Shown in pieces: positions 685-23,411 of a DNA stretch of 56,693 bases. Source of the DNA: an uncultured Clostridia bacterium (GTDB lineage: Bacteria > Bacillota > Clostridia > TANB77 > CAG-508); NCBI GenBank assembly GCA_944386655.1, contig CALXBX010000026.1:1-56693 (forward strand). Direction: 5' to 3'. Within the stretch, counting starts at the first letter, position 1; every line of letters begins with the position of its first letter. The translations under genes were made by a program, and so were the position numbers. The notes beneath the pieces are model-generated. The model searched no databases, was not told the origin of the DNA, and saw only the letters and a program-made list of their open reading frames with translations.

Positions 685-1815
685 TTATTCCTCTTGTTGT
701 GACTCACTTTCCTCATTTTGCATTTTGGCAATCATCTCTCTAAATTGAGACTCACTCTTAATATCTATTTTCCATGTAGTTAACTTTGCTGCCAATCTTG
801 CATTTTGTCCTGCTTTTCCGATGGCAAGTGATAATTGATCATCTGGAACAATAACTTGTGCAAATCTTTCCTCTTCTTTAATATCTACTGCCATTACTTG
901 TGCTGGAAGCAATGCAGAAGAAATATAAATGGCTGGATCTTCGTTCCATTCAATGACATCTATTTTTTCTCCATTTAATTCATTAATAATATTTTGTATA
1001 CGTATTCCTTTTTGTCCTACACAAGAACCTACTGGATCAATGTTAGGATTTTGAGAATATACTGCAATTTTGCATCTAGAACCTGGGTCTCTTGCTACAT
1101 TTTTTATTTCTATTAATCCTTCATAAATTTCTGGAATTTCTAGTTCAAATAATTTTCTAACAAATTCTCCATTCGCTCTAGAAAGAATTACTTGAATACT
1201 TCCTTTTAGTCCTTTTTCTACATCTAAAATGCATGCTCTTATTTTATCATTTACATGATAATGTTCTGTAGGAATTTGTTCTTTTACAGTAAGAATTCCT
1301 TCTATTCTTCCTAAATCCACTACTACCACGCCACCATCTGCTTTTTGTACAATTCCAGAAACAATTTCTCCTTTTTTATCTCCAAATTCTTTATATAAGT
1401 ATTCTCTGGATGCTTCTCTAATTTTTTGTACAATAACTTGTTTTGCTGTTCCTGCTGCAATTCTACCAAAATTACGTGGTACTAATTCTTTTTCTACGAC
1501 ATCTCCTATCTGGTATTTTTTATCTAATTCTTGTGCTTGTGCTAAAGAAATTTGTGTTTTTGGATTTTCTACTTCCTCTACTACTTCTTTTTGCATATAT
1601 ACATGGATTTCTCCTGTTTCTTTATCCATTGTAATTTTTACATTTTCATCATCACAATCAAAATTTTTCTTGTAAGCTGTTACTAATGCTGTTTCTATAG
1701 ATTCTAATAAATATTCTTTTTGTATGCCACTTTCTTTTTCCAAATCGTCCATTGCTTTGATTAATTCTGTGCTATCAATTGCTGGTTCGTTTACTTTGTT
1801 TTCTTTTTTCTTCAT
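685..1815 (-). CDS. nusA: Transcription termination/antitermination factor NusA
   Basis: 376 residues, the length of the short Gram-positive NusA without acidic C-terminal repeats. Order of domains: N-terminal RNA-polymerase-binding domain (about 1-125), S1 domain (about 130-200, with [21 protein letters not shown]), KH1 (about 230-300, [17 protein letters not shown]) and KH2 (about 305-365, [19 protein letters not shown]). The protein binds RNA polymerase and nascent RNA, and modulates pausing and intrinsic termination. It sits between rimP and ylxR, 19 nt after rimP. A purine-rich GGAGGAAATC precedes the ATG. The C-terminus ends in an acidic Gln/Glu-rich tail. Confidence 0.97.
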
Positions 1816-1834
1816 TTTTTTGATTTCCTCCTTT

Positions 1835-2296
1835 TTAATCCCAATTATAATGTAACTTTACCAAAGATATATTTTTTCTGTCTAATGTAATGTTTTTTCC
1901 TGTTTCCTCTTCTATTTCTATATTTTCCTCACAAAAGCTTTTTAATATTCCTTGATATTCTTTCTTTCCATCTATTGGTTTAAACAGTTTAATATCTACT
2001 ACATTTCCTATATTGTCTTCAAAATGCTTTTCTTTTCTTAATACTCTTTCTATACCAGGAGAAGAAACTTCTAGGAAATATGCTTCTTTGATGTAACTTG
2101 CTTCATCTAATGTATCAGAAATGGCATCATTTACTGTTTCGCAATCATTTAAATCAATTCCTTCTGGCTTATCAATGTAGATACGTAAAAAATAGTCTTT
2201 TCCTTCTTTTACATATTGTACATCATATAACTGATAGCCTAGTTCTTCTATTTTATTTTCTATTAAATTTTGTACTTTTTCCTCAATACTTGCCAC
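1835..2296 (-). CDS. rimP: Ribosome maturation factor RimP
   Basis: 153 residues beginning (M)ASIEEKVQNLI, with the two typical segments: an N-terminal alpha/beta domain containing YVKEGKDYFLRIYIDKPEGI and DCETVNDAISDTLDE, and SSPGIERVL, the most conserved RimP motif, followed by a small SH3-like C-terminal domain. RimP binds free 30S particles and assists their maturation. It is the first gene of the nusA operon. The start codon is GTG with AAAGGAGGG upstream. Length is normal for the family (about 150). Confidence 0.95.
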   Translation of the reverse strand: MASIEEKVQNLIENKIEELGYQLYDVQYVKEGKDYFLRIYIDKPEGIDLNDCETVNDAISDTLDEASYIKEAYFLEVSSPGIERVLRKEKHFEDNIGNVVDIKLFKPIDGKKEYQGILKSFCEENIEIEEETGKNITLDRKNISLVKLHYNWD

Positions 2297-2472: not shown

Positions 2473-4062
2473 TTACTGCCATGCTAGGATGGGATATCCT
2501 TGATTGATATTACTTTCGTCTTGTTTAAAGGATTCTCCTAATATTGTATATATTTGTTTTAGTTCTACACTACTCTTTAAAGAACACTCACTTCCTATAG
2601 TAGAATCATTCGTTCCTGCTATTTTATCTGTTACCTCAGATAAAGTATAACTATTATATATCTCTCCTACAAATGTTCTATTTCCCGTTACATCTGTAAA
2701 TAAACTATTGTTTCCTGTAATGCCTCCTTTATTTTCTACGCTATCACTTAATTGACCTATATTATAACAATTCTCTATTTTTCCTCTATTTAGTCCTGCA
2801 ATTCCTCCTATATTGTTATATACTCCTATAATTGTTCCTGTATTATAGCAATCTTGAATATTAGCTTCATTTAGCCCTATAATTCCTCCTACATTAGCGC
2901 TATTACTATTATTTTTTTCTGTTGCCTCTATTTTCCCAGTGTTATAGCATTGGAATATCCTATTATTATCATCGGAAGTTAAAAATCCACATATACCCCC
3001 TACCAAATTATTTCCTGTAATGTTAGCTTCATTATAATTATTTTCTATAGAAACTCCATACGATATATGGGCTACTATACCAGCAACAGAATTACCATTT
3101 CCTGTGACATTTCCTTTATTAGAACAATTTCGTACTACTATATAATTATCTGTATATCCCACAATTCCTCCTACAATATCACCATTTCCTATAATATCTC
3201 CTTCATTATAGCAATTAATTATACTGCAATTTATATAAGCAACTCCTACTACTCCTGCTCCATTGTTATTTTGTGCTTCGATATTTGCTTTATTATAACA
3301 ATTCACTACTTCTGAACCATTATAAATGTATCCAGCTAACCCTGCAGTTGCAATCCCTCCTGTAATACTATTATTCTCTCCTATTCCTAAGTTAGTAATT
3401 TTTCCACTCTCTACTAAACCAAATAATCCTTGTACCTTATCTGCTGTATTAATATATATTCCATTGACTTCATAACCTTTACCATCAAAGATTCCACTAA
3501 ATGGTTTATTGTTTTCATCATCTGGAGTAGGGCTATCATTTGCATATAATCCTATTGGCTCCCATGGTTCACTACTATCCAATGTTATATTTCCTGTTAA
3601 ATATATATACTTTCCTTCATAAGTATTCCCATTATTTACATCGTCCCTAAAAGCCTTTAATTCTTCTGCTGAACCTATTGCTATCATGTTTTCTTCTGCT
3701 ATTACTTCTCCTGTACTATCAATATAATAGCTTCTTTCTGCTATCTGTAACAAGAAACTTCCATCTCCATTTTCTGTTAAGCTATATTCTGTATCTCTTA
3801 GTTGCGATTGTAGTGCTGTTTCTAATTTTGTTTTGTCTAATTCTAATGTTCCTTGTGCTTGTACAGATGCTACAGCAAGTTCGATTGCTTCCTTTTGTTG
3901 TGCTTGTGTAGTTAATTCATCTGCCCTCTGTGCTTGCGTAATAATTCCATTCTCGCCTACTAGCATAGCTATAGATACACCAGCTAGAATAATTAAAACG
4001 ATTATAGTTACCACAAGTGCTATTAAGGTAATTCCTCTTTCTTTATTCTTTTGTTCCTGCAT
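2473..4062 (-). CDS. Prepilin-like surface protein with GLUG repeats (copy 1)
   Basis: 529 residues. Residues 1-40 are a class III-type signal and pilin helix: a short basic leader (KNKERG), a prepilin-peptidase-like cleavage site before ITLIALVV, and a 20-residue hydrophobic helix ending LVGENGIITQAQRA. Position +5 of the mature helix is Ala instead of the usual Glu. After a conserved linker (to about 170) the protein is built of GLUG-type repeats of roughly 20-25 residues (GGI.G......NCYN.G.I.G), as in adhesins and M26 peptidases. The expected location is the cell surface. It is the last gene of the island on this strand, and its first 150 residues are nearly identical to those of the copies at 4306, 7292 and 53092. 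Whether it forms fibres is unknown. Confidence 0.8.
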   Translation of the reverse strand: MQEQKNKERGITLIALVVTIIVLIILAGVSIAMLVGENGIITQAQRADELTTQAQQKEAIELAVASVQAQGTLELDKTKLETALQSQLRDTEYSLTENGDGSFLLQIAERSYYIDSTGEVIAEENMIAIGSAEELKAFRDDVNNGNTYEGKYIYLTGNITLDSSEPWEPIGLYANDSPTPDDENNKPFSGIFDGKGYEVNGIYINTADKVQGLFGLVESGKITNLGIGENNSITGGIATAGLAGYIYNGSEVVNCYNKANIEAQNNNGAGVVGVAYINCSIINCYNEGDIIGNGDIVGGIVGYTDNYIVVRNCSNKGNVTGNGNSVAGIVAHISYGVSIENNYNEANITGNNLVGGICGFLTSDDNNRIFQCYNTGKIEATEKNNSNSANVGGIIGLNEANIQDCYNTGTIIGVYNNIGGIAGLNRGKIENCYNIGQLSDSVENKGGITGNNSLFTDVTGNRTFVGEIYNSYTLSEVTDKIAGTNDSTIGSECSLKSSVELKQIYTILGESFKQDESNINQGYPILAWQ

Positions 4063-4305: not shown

Positions 4306-5802
4306 TTAATTGACCATTGTTGGGTCACGTTGCCATATTAAAATTGGATAACCATTGTTTATATTATCTATATCTTCTTTAAATGATGCTCCTAATGTAG
4401 ATACTAATAACTTCATTTTTTCTTCTGATTTTATAGAACTATCTTCTATTATCGAATTGTTATAGCCACATATAGCTTCACATTTATCTTTTAATGAATA
4501 TGTGTTTTTTAATACTCCCGTTGTATGATAAGATGATGAAATATTATTTTCACCTACTATTCCTCCTATACGTACATTTCCTTCAATCTCACCGATATTA
4601 TAGCAGTTGAATATGTTACATACACTTTGTCCAGATATTCCTCCTATCTTACTTTCACCTTTAATATTTCCTACATTATAACAGTTTTGTACAATTCCAT
4701 TATTCATTACTTGCCCTAATATTCCACCAATTATATTATTTCCTTGTATTGCTCCCAGATTAAAACATTCTTCTAATAGTGACTCATCACTTAAATTACC
4801 TGATATTCCTCCTAAAATAGATGTTGTGCTTATATTTCCTTCAACTGTGCCTTTATTATAACATTTTTTTAAACTTGAATTTAAACTAACATTACCTACA
4901 ACTCCGCCTGTATTCCTAGAATCATTATTAACATTTATATTTCCTATATTATAACAGTTTTCAATACTACAATTTATTGCTAATTGTCCAAAAAGTCCTC
5001 CGCTGTATGAACCAACTTTCAAATTACTTTTATTATAACAATTTATTGCTTTTGATCCATTATATAAATATCCTGCTATTGCACCCACAGATAAATTGCC
5101 TGATATGTTACAGTCTATTCCTATTCCTAAATTTAATATTTTTCCACCTGTTACTAATCCAAACAATCCTTGAACTTTATCTGTTGTATTAATATATATT
5201 CCATTTATTTCATAACCTTTACCATCAAAGATTCCACTAAATGGCTTATTGTTTTCATCATCTGGTGTATCATTTTCCATCGAATATACCCCTATTGGTT
5301 CCCACTCTTCATTTATATCCAATGTTATATCACTAGTCAAATACACATACTTTCCTTCATACGTATTTCCATTATTTACATCATCTCTAAGTGTTTCTAA
5401 CTCTTCTGCTGAACCTATTGCTATCATGTTCTCTTCTTCTATTACTTTTCCTGTACTTTCGATATAATAGCTTCTTTCTGTTATTTGTAACCAAAAACTT
5501 CCATCTCCATTTTCTGTTAAGCTATATTCTGTATCTCCTAGTTGTGATTGTAAGGCTAATTCTAATTTTGTTTTATCTAGTTCTAAAGTTCCTTGTGCTT
5601 GAACAGATGCTACAGCAAGTTCTATTGCTTCTTTTTGCTGTGCTTGTGTGGTTAATTCGTCTGCCCTTTGTGCTTGCGTAATAATTCCATTTTCTCCTAC
5701 TAACATAGCTATAGATACACCAGCTAAAATGATTAATACAATGATGCTTACCACAAGTGCTATTAATGTTACTCCTCTTTCTTTGTTCTTTTGTTTCTGC
5801 AT
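4306..5802 (-). CDS. Prepilin-like surface protein with GLUG repeats (copy 2)
   Basis: 498 residues. The N-terminal leader (KNKERG), cleavage site and pilin-like helix (VTLIALVVSIIVLIILAG) match copy 1, again with Ala at mature position +5. The conserved linker ends in the segment GKYVYLTSDITLDINEEWEPIG. From about residue 190 to 470 there are GLUG-like repeats with the recurring NCYN.G.I pattern. The protein is probably exported and anchored or polymerised through the N-terminal helix. The DNA for the first 50 codons is nearly identical to the neighbouring copies, while the repeat region has diverged. This fits duplication followed by C-terminal divergence or recombination. No catalytic motif was seen. 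Confidence 0.8.
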   Translation of the reverse strand: MQKQKNKERGVTLIALVVSIIVLIILAGVSIAMLVGENGIITQAQRADELTTQAQQKEAIELAVASVQAQGTLELDKTKLELALQSQLGDTEYSLTENGDGSFWLQITERSYYIESTGKVIEEENMIAIGSAEELETLRDDVNNGNTYEGKYVYLTSDITLDINEEWEPIGVYSMENDTPDDENNKPFSGIFDGKGYEINGIYINTTDKVQGLFGLVTGGKILNLGIGIDCNISGNLSVGAIAGYLYNGSKAINCYNKSNLKVGSYSGGLFGQLAINCSIENCYNIGNINVNNDSRNTGGVVGNVSLNSSLKKCYNKGTVEGNISTTSILGGISGNLSDESLLEECFNLGAIQGNNIIGGILGQVMNNGIVQNCYNVGNIKGESKIGGISGQSVCNIFNCYNIGEIEGNVRIGGIVGENNISSSYHTTGVLKNTYSLKDKCEAICGYNNSIIEDSSIKSEEKMKLLVSTLGASFKEDIDNINNGYPILIWQRDPTMVN

Positions 5803-5809
5803 TATCTTA

Positions 5810-5838
5810 TCCTCCTTGCTTTTTTCTTACAAAGAGGA
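5810..5838 (-). promoter_or_regulatory. Shine-Dalgarno-sequestering hairpin, copy 2
   Basis: Minus-strand RNA arms UCCUCUUUGU and GCAAGGAGGA pair over 10 bp (two G-U) around an A-rich 9-nt loop. The AGGAGG ribosome binding site lies wholly in the downstream arm, 7 nt before the start at 5802. Arm sequences differ from copy 1 but pairing is kept. Confidence 0.7.
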
Positions 5839-5964
5839 TTATATCTTTTCCTTATTTTCTTTTTTCTCTTATTTTCGCTTTTTACTGTTAACTTGTTTTC
5901 ATAATAAATTTTATAATATCTATCTTATCGCATACGGTATTTTTAGTTTGCAGTTATTCAATGT

Positions 5965-7171
5965 TCAAAATAATGTTGAACGAAATCCCACACTATCTAT
6001 GCTCGTAATAACATTATTATGATGATAAGAAACTGGAACAAGAGAACTTGAATCTCCAAAATTTCCTCCTCTACGAACGCATGGAGCATCCTCATTATCA
6101 CTTTTTTCTATAGTCCATTCATATACATTTCCTGCTAAATCATATATATTCATTTTATTATTTCTATCTGTAGCTCCCGTTGAAAGTAATACCCCATTTC
6201 CTGATAAATTATAGGATGGTTTATTATAGTTTGTTAGAACATCTTTCCATTCACCTAAACTAGAACTATTATATATAGCATATTTATTATTATCTTCTAT
6301 TTGAAATTCAACATCTCTATAATTTCCCCATGAACCACTATTAGTTTTTAAGTAGTATGATGCTTCATTAGTTTTAATATCCCAATCTCCATTTACTTCT
6401 AAATATTTTAATGTCAAATCCCATTGTATTCCAAACATTAAACTACTGGTTTTATTTCCTATTGCTAATTTTTTTGATATTTCTTGTGCTTGAGCACATG
6501 TTACATAGTTATATGGATATGCTCCGTTTTTGTATTACCGCTTTTCTTGTTATATCTTCTTCTATCACAGGATTATCAAAAGATCCTACTTCATATCTTC
6601 CTATATAAAAACCTCCATTTTCGTATATACTTTTTAACATATTTTGTTTTGATTGTTTATATTCTTCCTTACTTAACCCACAACCATCATACCATGTATC
6701 TGCATAACCAGATTCTCTATAACTTTTTACATATTCTTGTAATGTTGTTTCTAATGTTTCATATTCTGTTTCATTTTCAAACGTCAGTCCTTCTGGCATC
6801 TCATTTTTTGGTACCTCTATCCACACCCATTCATTTCCATTTACATCTATTATTACCAAACCATTTTCCAATGTATTTTCTCCTTCTACTTTAGATACTG
6901 TACATTGCGCAGGTATATTTACTTTTTCTCCGTTTATATCTGTATATTCATACTCTTCTAAATGTACACTCGCTTCTAACATTGCTAATTGTCTTTTTTC
7001 TTCTACTTGTGCTTGCTCCGTTTCCTGTTTTGCCCTTTGTGCCTGTGTAATAATTCCATTTTCTCCTACTAGCATAGCTATTGATACTCCTGCTAAAATA
7101 ATTAAAACTATGATACTTACCACTAACGCAATGAGCGTAATTCCTTTTTCTTTATTCTTTTGTTTCTGCAT
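5965..7171 (-). pseudogene. Prepilin-like protein with FGE/C-type-lectin-like domain, frameshifted (copy 3)
   Basis: Two reading frames together encode one protein of about 400 residues. The first (7171 to 6509) has the leader and pilin-like helix (ITLIALVVSIIVLIILAG), then NGLVIIDVNGNEWVWIEVP and GFYIGRYEVGSF, the start of a formylglycine-generating-enzyme (FGE)-like fold. The second, one frame over, continues with YPYNYVTCAQAQEISKKLA, then NIYDLAGNVYEW, VRRGGNF and VGFRSTLF, the C-terminal half of the same fold. The frames meet near 6525-6535 at an A5 run (CAAAAACGG). A single-base indel explains the break; it may be a sequencing error, a true mutation or slippage. The fold is used for binding in several surface proteins, and no enzymatic cysteine pair was confirmed. 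Confidence 0.7.
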
Positions 7172-20245: not shown

Positions 20246-20349
20246 TTTTCACTCCTTTTGTATATTTCTGATTTATGCTCATTTTTACTTATATTTAAAA
20301 ATTTTGTGCAAAACACTTGAATTTTTTTCAAATTATCCATATAATATAT

Positions 20350-20378
20350 TTGACAGATGAATTTATTTTATGTATAAT
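20350..20378 (+). promoter_or_regulatory. Consensus sigma-A promoter for the DUF3800-linked RNA
   Basis: TTGACA, a 17-bp spacer and TATAAT: a perfect match to the vegetative consensus and the strongest promoter seen in the window. It points towards the 3' end of the DUF3800 gene. No protein-coding frame follows it. Confidence 0.8.
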
Positions 20379-20384
20379 TTATTT

Positions 20385-20482
20385 AATATAGTATATAATT
20401 ATTATATAAGTCCTTTATGTGCGAAAGTCAGCTTCATGCTGTGAGTATTTTAATACCTAGCCGTAAAGGGCTTATCTTCTTT
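20385..20482 (+). ncRNA. Structured ncRNA convergent with the DUF3800 gene (candidate DUF3800 RNA motif)
   Basis: Downstream of a consensus promoter, AUAAGUCCUUUAUG (20406-20419) pairs over 14 bp, three of them G-U, with CGUAAAGGGCUUAU (20462-20475). Inside are two small hairpins, CAGC/GCUG with loop UUCAU and GUAUU/AAUAC, giving a three-way junction; single-stranded UGCGAAAGU and CUAGC flank them. The last 49 nt or so overlap the DUF3800 stop codon and tail in antisense. Structured RNAs next to DUF3800 genes ('DUF3800 RNA motifs') are known from comparative genomics; I infer that this is one, without alignment. The 3' end is T-rich rather than a clean T-tract. Confidence 0.65.
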
Positions 20483-21243
20483 ATATCAAATGGATTCTTT
20501 TTACTATAAAAATTCTTCCATCCTTTTTTATAATCATATAAATCTACAATTAATCCAAATTTTTCTTTTAAAAATTTGTAATATCTCATATCCTTTTGTA
20601 AAAAAGCTCTTTGTACTGCCCAATTACAATAATCTACAATCTGCAGACACATTTCTCCTGATGGAGTTTGTGGTAGAATTTTCTGGGTAGAGTCTATAAC
20701 TGTATTTAATCTATTTTCCGTATAATTTAAAGCTCTCTGTATTGCTTTTTCCAATGGCTCCTGTCTTTTTTTACTTCCTCTAGTTGCTATATAAATATAA
20801 TTATTATTAGATAAGTGTAATATATTTTTGAATAAATTCGTAATTAAAGAATCATATAATTCTTGTGTATTTCCATTAAATTTCTCAAATACATGTTGTG
20901 TTTTTCTCGCCACAACAATATTACAAGAGAACGGTAAATCTTTTAATAGCGTAAAAACTTTATATCTAACTTCTGGACAATCATCTTTAGCATGAAAAGC
21001 GATTTTTGTTTTACTTATAGAAGGTATTTCACTTAAATACTCGTCTTTCGATATTTCATATTTTAACATATTAAGTTTCTTTCTTAAAAATTCTGGCTCT
21101 GTTGTCCTTATAAAACCCATGAGTAATATCTGTGATGATCCATTTTCATTTCCTACAATCCATTCACCTTTCCTATTGTAAAAAGTTGTATCACCTGATT
21201 CATCCACAAAAAAATAATTATTATTATATATGTTTCCTTGCAT
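20434..21243 (-). CDS. DUF3800 domain protein
   Basis: 269 residues. The N-terminus has YFFVDESGD, the hallmark of DUF3800, a family with an RNase-H-like fold. Other conserved points are FHAKDD (about residue 86) and LQIVDYCNWAVQRAF (about 212-226), giving spaced Asp, Glu and His residues suited to metal binding. The biochemical function is not established; members occur in defence islands and beside structured RNAs. The 3' end of the gene overlaps the convergent ncRNA at 20385-20482. An extended -10 promoter lies at 21289-21297. It is bracketed by housekeeping genes, so it is probably a recent insertion. Confidence 0.88.
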   Translation of the reverse strand: MQGNIYNNNYFFVDESGDTTFYNRKGEWIVGNENGSSQILLMGFIRTTEPEFLRKKLNMLKYEISKDEYLSEIPSISKTKIAFHAKDDCPEVRYKVFTLLKDLPFSCNIVVARKTQHVFEKFNGNTQELYDSLITNLFKNILHLSNNNYIYIATRGSKKRQEPLEKAIQRALNYTENRLNTVIDSTQKILPQTPSGEMCLQIVDYCNWAVQRAFLQKDMRYYKFLKEKFGLIVDLYDYKKGWKNFYSKKNPFDIKKISPLRLGIKILTA

Positions 21244-21288
21244 ATATCTCTTCCTTTCAAACTCATTAGTTAATGTTTAATGAATTTG

Positions 21289-21297
21289 ATTATACCA
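21289..21297 (-). promoter_or_regulatory. Extended -10 promoter of the DUF3800 gene
   Basis: TGGTATAAT on the minus strand, 46 nt before the start codon at 21243. No convincing -35 is present, as is common for extended -10 promoters. Confidence 0.5.
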
Positions 21298-21374
21298 TAG
21301 GATAAAATACATTGCATTATTTTTCATAAATTTTGTTAACAAATTTCCATTATTTTGTTGAAAGTAATCTTATT

Positions 21375-23411
21375 CTATACCTGACTTGAATGGGACACCC
21401 CGAAATTTTTGTCGGATTTTGGTCCATCTATAAGATGATTCATTAGCCCTATGCTATATAGTGCGGTAATATACATAGCGTGTGACCACCCAAGTCCAAT
21501 TACCCACTTGGATTGCATAGTAGGGTTGTCTACTTGTTCTGCTAATAAACCATGTTTGGTTGCTGTATCTGTTACGAACTCTATACATTTTCCAGCTTTT
21601 TCTTTTTCTCCTACTTGTAACCAGTATAGCGCCATCCACAAAGTGGCTATTGGCCATGGATTATTTCCTCCTATATAGCTATCATTTTCAAAGCGTACAT
21701 AACCTCCTGTATAAGTTCTTAATGTTAAATCTATTTTTTCGATGGTATTTTTTACTTCTTTCTCGTTTGGATCTAACATTCTAAATGGAGTAACTGCTCC
21801 TAATATGCTAATATCTAATATTTGATCTTTATTATTTCTTCTTAATACTTTTGTTTCTTCATCACACAAATGTGTTAAGCAATATTTTCTAACTCTTTCG
21901 CCATATTGTTTTACACTCTCTATTTTTTCCTGTTCTTCTTTTTGTTTTTCTGGACTTGTATTTTTCTTTTCTCTTAAGTTTTTATAAATATGTTCCATTG
22001 CTTCAAACGCACCAAAAATAGCTGCTAAAGAATACAAATGAATTCCTTCATGCATTTCCCACAAGTCATAACTTTCGTTTTTCACAAATCTTTCTTGTTG
22101 CATTTCATTTTTTCTTTCTTGCACACATTCCCCTGTAATGTAATCTATGTATTTTTTTAAATAATTGATTGCTTTTTCGCACATATCTAAGGTTTCTTTC
22201 AAAAATGCTTTATTTTTTGTATTGTAATAATGCACATACACACCAAATACAACACTAGCTGTTTCGTCTATTTGATATCCCCAACATGGCGCCAATCTTC
22301 CATCTGTAAAGAATCTTTGTTCCCACATTCCGTTCTTGCTTTGTGTATTTTTACTAAATACCGTATAAAACTTTTCTATATCTTCATACATTTTTAGAAT
22401 ATCGGATGCTTTTGCTGTAAATACAGCATCTCTTGGCCAACAATAAGAGTATCTACCAGATTTATCTTTTTCTTCATCTACTTCTAATGCTGCTGAAATA
22501 CCTCCCGTTGTATGATTTTGTAATAGAGGAAATAATAAAATCGTTCTGGTATAAATATTTTTTACTTTCTCGAATTCTCCTTGTTTATGAGAATTTAATA
22601 CTTCTTTCCATTTTTCTTGTTTTCCTTCTTCTAATATCTTTAGCCCATCATGCTGTTTGACATATTTTCTCCAATATTTTTTTGCTCTTTCTAAAGCTTT
22701 ATTGGTATCCATTTTTCTAATTGTCTCTATTTTTTCTTTAATCTGGTCAAAAGCATAAATTTCTCTATTATTATTGATATAGACAAATATTTCGAATTCT
22801 TTTGTTTTTCCTGGCTCTATTTTGCCCACCGAGAAGCTAACACCTGAATCTCTTGCCATTCCTATATAATCTTTATCACACAATACTCCATTTTTGATTT
22901 CTTCTCCACTATTATTTAGTCTATATCCTTTTATTGGCAATTTAGAAAAGATAGAAAATGTATAGTTGTGGCTATATTGCATTAAAATATTATCTTCTAC
23001 TTTTGATCCCACCATATTATTAAAACTAGATAATAATTGTGAATAAATAAGAAAATCCACATCCAATGCAATACTATTATGATTTGTCATGGCATATTTT
23101 CTGATATAGACATTTTGGTCCACTGTTACAAAATCTGTTTGCAAGATTTCTAAATTAAAGTAAGTATTCTCTATTTGTGTATTTAACACATTGGTGTTTT
23201 CTGAATAATATTGACTATATTGATTGTTGATATCATCGTGTAGATAAATAAGTGCTGAATCATTTACTTTTACTCCTGCTTGCAAAGTTTCCACAAATTG
23301 TCTACAATCTCTATTGGGATAAAATAATCTTAGTAGTTCTCCTTTTTCACTAAAACTAATCACCATATTTTCATTTCCTACAAAAGCTTGGTTCAAATAT
23401 TTTTTTCTCAT
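21375..23411 (-). CDS. Glycoside hydrolase family 15 protein (glucoamylase-like)
   Basis: 678 residues, intracellular (no signal peptide). The N-terminal beta-sandwich (about 1-250) starts with YLNQAFVGNENMVISFSEKG and holds LLRLFYPNRD. An (alpha/alpha)6 barrel follows, with GRYSYCWPRDAVFTAKA (about 320), WEQRFFTDGRLAPCWGYQIDE (about 365-385, acidic substrate-site residues), ESYDLWEMHEGIHLYSLAA (about 445, likely catalytic acid) and NNPWPIATLWMALYW (about 600). This layout is the bacterial GH15 group acting on alpha-1,4-glucans or trehalose-like substrates. Exact substrate not predictable. It starts 59 nt after the end of the metallo-beta-lactamase gene. Confidence 0.88.
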   Translation of the reverse strand: MRKKYLNQAFVGNENMVISFSEKGELLRLFYPNRDCRQFVETLQAGVKVNDSALIYLHDDINNQYSQYYSENTNVLNTQIENTYFNLEILQTDFVTVDQNVYIRKYAMTNHNSIALDVDFLIYSQLLSSFNNMVGSKVEDNILMQYSHNYTFSIFSKLPIKGYRLNNSGEEIKNGVLCDKDYIGMARDSGVSFSVGKIEPGKTKEFEIFVYINNNREIYAFDQIKEKIETIRKMDTNKALERAKKYWRKYVKQHDGLKILEEGKQEKWKEVLNSHKQGEFEKVKNIYTRTILLFPLLQNHTTGGISAALEVDEEKDKSGRYSYCWPRDAVFTAKASDILKMYEDIEKFYTVFSKNTQSKNGMWEQRFFTDGRLAPCWGYQIDETASVVFGVYVHYYNTKNKAFLKETLDMCEKAINYLKKYIDYITGECVQERKNEMQQERFVKNESYDLWEMHEGIHLYSLAAIFGAFEAMEHIYKNLREKKNTSPEKQKEEQEKIESVKQYGERVRKYCLTHLCDEETKVLRRNNKDQILDISILGAVTPFRMLDPNEKEVKNTIEKIDLTLRTYTGGYVRFENDSYIGGNNPWPIATLWMALYWLQVGEKEKAGKCIEFVTDTATKHGLLAEQVDNPTMQSKWVIGLGWSHAMYITALYSIGLMNHLIDGPKSDKNFGVSHSSQV

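Follow-up and report, generated by a model that had tools for sequence, protein, structure and literature searches.

The window analyzed here, a 56,693-nucleotide (nt) contig from an uncultured Clostridia bacterium (GenBank assembly GCA_944386655.1, contig CALXBX010000026.1), carries a gene for a DUF3800 protein that converges with a small structured RNA, which we call RNA-A. RNA-A is well supported as a real structured RNA that is undescribed in Rfam and related in layout to the Rfam DUF3800 motifs, and the convergent RNA-A/DUF3800 pairing, which recurs in three unrelated DUF3800 lineages, is well supported too. With moderate confidence, we propose that the pair forms a mobile module in which a DUF3800 nuclease is restrained by a folded RNA antitoxin in a type III-like manner, the copies of RNA-A found in phages acting as RNA mimics. 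The elements of the locus are listed below; loci and genomes outside the window are referred to by L and G numbers.

20350-20378, forward strand: RNA promoter of consensus sigma-70 type, TTGACA-N17-TATAAT, matching the consensus at 12/12 positions
20385-20487, forward strand: predicted transcript, starting ~7 nt past the -10 box and ending in a U-rich tract, as suggested by the promoter and the terminator-like P1 helix and U-tract
20405-20487, forward strand: RNA-A core, a three-way junction (P1 / YGAAAGUC / P2 / GUG / P3 / CUAG / P1') followed by the U-rich tract, based on folding, covariance models R1-R3 and covariation
20434-20487: region shared by RNA-A and the 3' end of the DUF3800 gene, under constraint from the RNA as judged by codon third positions and reading-frame differences
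20434-21243, reverse strand: DUF3800 protein of 269 amino acids with a predicted RNase HII-like fold, based on the open reading frame (ORF), PF12686, PADLOC DUF3800_VII, a structure model and invariant residues
20262-21385: mobile cassette of 1.12 kb (DUF3800 gene, RNA-A and promoter), delimited by empty sites in relatives, with ends accurate to a few bases

The first-pass annotation of this DNA had proposed a perfect promoter driving an RNA with a 14-bp closing stem and two inner hairpins. The promoter was confirmed, and it still matches the consensus at 12/12 positions in 13 of the 14 copies of the window group. Promoter-like sites overall were not enriched in the window (13 found versus 17.6 expected); that of RNA-A is itself perfect. 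The RNA (20385-20490) folded with a free energy of -25.6 kcal/mol (z -3.7), lower than all 200 of 200 shuffled sequences, and the opposite strand folded less well (z -2.3). The two inner hairpins correspond to P2 (20429-20432/20438-20441) and P3 (20445-20448/20453-20456), and the closing stem P1 turned out to be longer than proposed, with 16 pairs and one bulge (20406-20419 and 20421-20422 paired with 20460-20475). As the U-rich tract follows P1, this helix can double as the terminator of RNA-A.

Strong evidence for the fold came from divergent copies, which covariance models built from close copies retrieved without positional guidance. In an alignment of 25 diverse copies (24 distinct), 96% of the pair cells were standard pairs, and two-sided compensatory changes were found in 19 of the 24 pairs (116 cells; shuffles gave 27 and slid controls no more than 24); alignments A5 and A6 were made to the covariance model, which favors the structure. 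Model R1, however, was built without P3, yet its own matches displayed P3 pairing in L053 and L061. The sequence of P1 is almost wholly replaced between copies, and the junction elements YGAAAGUC, GUG and CUAG stay constant. This covariation was not visible in MAFFT-only alignments of the close group but became visible once the divergent copies were included. Because many pattern matches in virus contigs were due to chance, only copies confirmed by a covariance model were counted. Eight candidates (L085-L090, L137 and L138) were discarded as plain terminator hairpins resembling P1, and two truncated 5' halves (L062 and L063) and a decayed copy (L064) were not counted as evidence for stand-alone RNA-A. 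Reading the junction as a ribozyme, hammerhead-like or other, was rejected, as the CUGAUGA core is absent. A guide-RNA reading was also rejected, as no variable segment occurs among the copies; of the ligand, inhibitor and guide roles considered in the first-pass annotation, the last is therefore the least probable.

Transcription of RNA-A runs head-on into the DUF3800 gene and covers its last 54 nt (20434-20487), in agreement with the antisense arrangement proposed earlier. We collected 19 close relatives of the locus (76-100% in the best-matching segment) from metagenome-assembled genomes (MAGs) of uncultured Clostridia and Bacilli, and RNA-A and its promoter were retained 3' of the DUF3800 gene in nearly all of them. 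The pairing of protein and RNA, which would have been put in doubt if the RNA were not conserved beside DUF3800 homologs, is thus real and conserved. Third codon positions varied in only 3 of the 11 codons inside the overlap, compared with 46-53 of 60 in the rest of the gene, and the reading frame past the P3 loop differs among copies in which RNA-A is unchanged. Hence, it is RNA-A, and not the C-terminus of the DUF3800 protein, that is under preservation. The 54-nt overlap in the window group and the terminator-like P1 and U-tract could suggest that RNA-A acts in cis only, lowering DUF3800 expression by antisense or convergent transcription and termination. We consider this very improbable: an antisense RNA would have no need of the RNA-A fold, the junction bases are invariant while the helix sequences change freely, the RNA lies beyond the gene with no overlap in L084 and L135, and phages carry stand-alone copies.

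The window protein was identified as DUF3800 (PF12686, E-value 2.2e-8, 35.4 bits versus a curated cut-off of 21), the only Pfam family above cut-off, and it matched the PADLOC profile DUF3800_VII at 6.8e-24. An AlphaFold2 model based on 19 sequences (pLDDT 77.5, pTM 0.79) had RNase HII as its best structural match (Foldseek E 1.1e-4; VIA-align Z 9.9, root-mean-square deviation 3.1, 158 residues), followed by Argonaute PIWI domains (Z ~8), which supports the RNase-H-like fold suggested beforehand. D14, E15 and D204 are invariant and, judging by this conservation, are likely metal ligands. The protein may be a nuclease, although a modeled fold is by itself no demonstration of activity. A sequence search of the PDB with the window protein gave no match, and relatives were absent among known phages and limited to one weak partial match among plasmids.

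RNA-A was also found beside two DUF3800 proteins unrelated to that of the window. In genome G491, from a different family of the phylum, RNA-A (L084/L209) faces the gene of a DUF3800 protein (Pfam 3.8e-8) whose overall similarity to the window protein was not significant in BLASTP, and in L209 an Rfam DUF3800-VIII RNA (58.5 bits, gathering threshold 40.2) lies between the gene and RNA-A, in tandem with the latter. A third DUF3800 protein (7.8e-15), with an integrase adjacent, is encoded head-on to RNA-A in genome G900 and in a nearly identical virus contig (L135/L121). DUF3800 genes are present in 53 of the 145 genomes of the source bacterial family, and 30 other DUF3800 loci of this family, one of which carries a DUF3800-I RNA, had no RNA-A, so that the pairing is selective. 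A weaker copy (38 bits, L136:1501-1580) converges with a DUF4411 gene (1530-2087, reverse strand) and overlaps its 3' end; an IrrE-like peptidase gene is adjacent. We take DUF4411 to be PIN-like, and RNA-A may thus pair with other toxin-like genes too.

In the window, the cassette sits between a glycoside-hydrolase-like gene and radA. Relative G007 (L216), 97.7% identical on both flanks, lacks 20262-21385 and almost nothing else there, and the cassette is also absent from the site in G005 (flanks 86-90% identical) and in the remaining relatives examined. Its presence is patchy, the window protein being found in 2 of the 27 genomes of the genus, and the gene and RNA-A of the window group occur as a unit in many unrelated sites. 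The cassette keeps company with defense and mobility genes: at other loci, its neighbors include GmrSD_N, a KAP NTPase, a PemK toxin, Mob_Pre with an OLD-like ATPase, and a phage integrase, and one copy (L050) adjoins the integrase of a temperate phage contig. Four copies (L003, L005, L012 and L017) lie 3' of tRNA genes. We took the repeats that occur upstream of several copies, close to tRNA genes, as insertion context only. In L008, a ~126-nt repeat occurs three times (2609-2734, 3736-3861 and 5056-5181, spaced 1.1-1.3 kb) and separates the DUF3800 unit from a PemK/MazF toxin gene. Two of these repeats are followed by a hairpin, and a similar 28-bp imperfect hairpin comes after the 3' ends of tRNAs in L003, L005 and L017. 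For the repeats of L008, an integron-like interpretation was considered.

RNA-A proved far more widespread than its pairing with DUF3800: the divergent copies are mostly phage-borne, and more of them lack a DUF3800 gene than have one. In about a dozen virus contigs, RNA-A is present and the record revealed no DUF3800 gene, although these records are mostly fragments, in which absence from the record does not prove absence. Phage hallmarks on RNA-A contigs include a terminase (L106, L116 and L132), a major head protein (L120) and an endolysin (L053), and in L061, RNA-A lies on a DNA-ligase-bearing, phage-like contig inside a MAG. L133 is a levivirus-like single-stranded RNA (ssRNA) phage (RNA replicase PF03431, 4e-25, and a weak maturation-protein match), in which RNA-A lies in the interval that separates the maturation gene from the next ORF. 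Strong promoters precede the stand-alone RNA-A of L201, L202 and L208. In L132, RNA-A is immediately 5' of a tRNA-Glu gene, and in L131, a weak match to DUF3800-VIII (29.7 bits, under the gathering threshold) comes after it. The scores of L119 and L123 are low (31-32 bits), and L122, L126, L117 and L131 showed no clear phage hallmark within the scanned part. As a blastn search of RNA-A against GenBank phages and plasmids gave chance matches only, the case for RNA-A in phages depends on IMG/VR contigs. No description of phage-borne DUF3800-type RNAs was found in the literature searched, which did not extend to subscription papers.

Several further observations were made on these contigs. In L134, a stand-alone RNA-A (1501-1584, 79.8 bits) has an integrase gene on one side and, head-on and 3 nt away on the other, an unrelated gene for a 181-amino-acid protein whose C-terminal segment is hydrophobic. 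Another candidate structured RNA (GATAGCGCCATTGATATCCGAAACCTGCACCAAG...GGACTCAAGGCGCTATTTT) lies in tandem with RNA-A in L205 (~420-550), L206 (~536-640) and L196, representing a two-copy genome and a virus contig; in phage L132, RNA-A is preceded by a similar stretch (L198, ~519-660) that matches DUF3800-VII very weakly. L061 also encodes three consecutive proteins (4619-6145) with a FETNSSSTHS/N motif near their N-termini.

This distribution could mean that RNA-A is a general phage RNA with a function of its own, such as host take-over or RNA stability, carried in the way of phage tRNAs, and that DUF3800 genes are cargo placed against it with no direct interaction. The excess of divergent copies without DUF3800 would fit, as would the copies adjoining tRNA or structural genes, the DUF4411 gene overlapped in L136 and the different kind of gene faced in L134. 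We nevertheless judge it fairly unlikely, because the same convergent geometry is found with three unrelated DUF3800 proteins, because RNA-A stands in tandem with a known DUF3800-associated RNA in L209, and because gene and RNA of the window group move together into many unrelated sites.

Loci in which only one of the two partners is intact also bear on the function of RNA-A. The DUF3800 gene has in-frame stops in L008 and internal deletions in L017 and L020, yet RNA-A is intact in all three (111-117 bits), and L091 is an intact orphan RNA-A (77 bits) in a genome where no DUF3800 gene was found. Intact RNA-A with a broken gene is what would be expected if the RNA, and not the protein, were harmless or useful alone. 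This pattern is a poor fit for an activating cofactor with no other use. RNA-A as an activating cofactor or sensed ligand, with the nuclease built on the RNA or responding to phage-made RNA-A and acting as a ribonucleoprotein, is in our estimate unlikely. RNase-H-fold relatives with RNA partners do exist, as the Argonaute PIWI matches recall, DUF3800 proteins accompany some Cas12a2 systems (PMC10910872), and RNA-A in phages would then be the trigger. However, phages would be expected to shed a trigger and not to keep it behind a strong promoter, and RNA-A offers no variable guide segment.

The antitoxin model ties all of these parts together. In it, the DUF3800 protein would be a nuclease of RNase-H fold, harmful when free to the cell or to an infecting phage. 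RNA-A would be produced in excess from its consensus promoter and fold as a three-way junction, whose invariant bases would bind and restrain the nuclease, as type III RNA antitoxins do; some repression in cis may come on top, from collision with the DUF3800 mRNA at its 3' end. Phages exposed to such nucleases would carry RNA-A alone as an antitoxin mimic. More tentatively, both tailed and ssRNA phages may use RNA-A in this way to disable a widespread, uncharacterized defense, the mimic lying within the viral genome itself in the ssRNA phage and in tandem with mimics of other DUF3800 RNAs in some cases. The inhibition by RNA-A, its binding, the nuclease activity and the anti-defense use in phages are all inferred, and so is the analogy with abortive infection or toxin-antitoxin systems drawn by the first-pass annotation, although it fits.

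Several points weigh against the antitoxin model. Orphan RNAs and broken genes would also be expected if RNA-A had its own use, and some of the broken genes could be sequence errors in MAGs. L013 has an intact DUF3800 gene beside a truncated RNA-A, near a contig end. The literature search turned up no experiment on any DUF3800 protein, and that phages meet DUF3800 nucleases is presumed. Finally, known type III antitoxins are encoded directly upstream of the toxin gene, in the same direction and usually as tandem repeats, whereas RNA-A is a single unit located downstream of the gene and convergent with it. The protein differs as well: none of the type III toxin families (ToxN/AbiQ, CptN and TenpN) was recovered, Pfam giving DUF3800 only and the model being RNase HII-like.

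Comparison with known RNAs places RNA-A as a new RNA within the already known DUF3800-RNA association, which is mentioned in PMC10910872. Like RNA-A, the Rfam motifs DUF3800-I to DUF3800-XI (for example RF02969, DUF3800-I, and RF03075, DUF3800-VIII) are structured RNAs beside DUF3800 genes, and DUF3800-VIII shares its layout of P1, a GAA-rich joint, P2, a UAG joint and P1'. RNA-A has one helix more than DUF3800-VIII, P3, and invariant junction bases of its own, and it differs from the Rfam motifs in that its divergent copies are mostly without DUF3800. Rfam 15 gave no DUF3800 motif for the window at gathering thresholds and no match of any kind for 20250-21350 even at E-values up to 10. No Rfam model matched the RNA-A stretch of divergent copies either, and the DUF3800-I to -XI models had no match on that of 18 divergent loci. 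The search for an Rfam DUF3800 motif suggested earlier thus found nothing: the RNA is of the DUF3800 type in being structured and beside such a gene, but it is not a member of an existing Rfam motif.

Among defense systems, AbiF of C. difficile offers a parallel, as a toxic, prophage-borne protein with a structured noncoding RNA, RCd22, which binds it directly and so neutralizes it, both in cis and in trans (PMC12373285). AbiF is, however, a HEPN/Abi_2 protein, in contrast to the RNase-H fold of DUF3800, and RCd22 is unrelated to RNA-A. ToxIN likewise combines an RNA antitoxin of a nuclease-type toxin with a phage copy of the RNA, as phage PhiTE escapes it through a pseudo-ToxI RNA (PMC3475682), although the toxin there has the ToxN fold, and ToxI is an array of pseudoknot repeats and RNA-A a single three-way junction. 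DUF3800 proteins with an RNase H fold are accessory in Cas12a2 and type VI-F CRISPR systems (PMC10910872, PMC12669027), but the cassette and its neighboring genes include no CRISPR effector. The window protein also matches the profile of the type VII retron effector (PADLOC DUF3800_VII). A type VII retron was rejected, as inspection by eye of the ORFs within 4 kb (PPIase-, DisA-, RadA-, glycoside-hydrolase- and metallo-beta-lactamase-like) revealed no reverse-transcriptase-like ORF, and no msr-msd layout was noted. DUF3800 proteins are common, occur beside CRISPR and retron systems and have RNA neighbors; RNA-A links three unrelated DUF3800 lineages to phages carrying the RNA alone. If true, the antitoxin model would add a further RNA-restrained nuclease defense after ToxIN and AbiF, with a viral counter-measure even in an RNA phage.

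Other structured RNAs were encountered near DUF3800 loci. In the source bacterial family, an Rfam DUF3800-I RNA (L159:1297-1427) lies beside a different DUF3800 gene, and an OLE RNA (L154:597-1191, reverse strand, 342.9 bits) lies near another DUF3800 locus. A skipping-rope RNA (L011:3094-3175, 64.2 bits) was found ~0.7 kb from the DUF3800 unit of L011.
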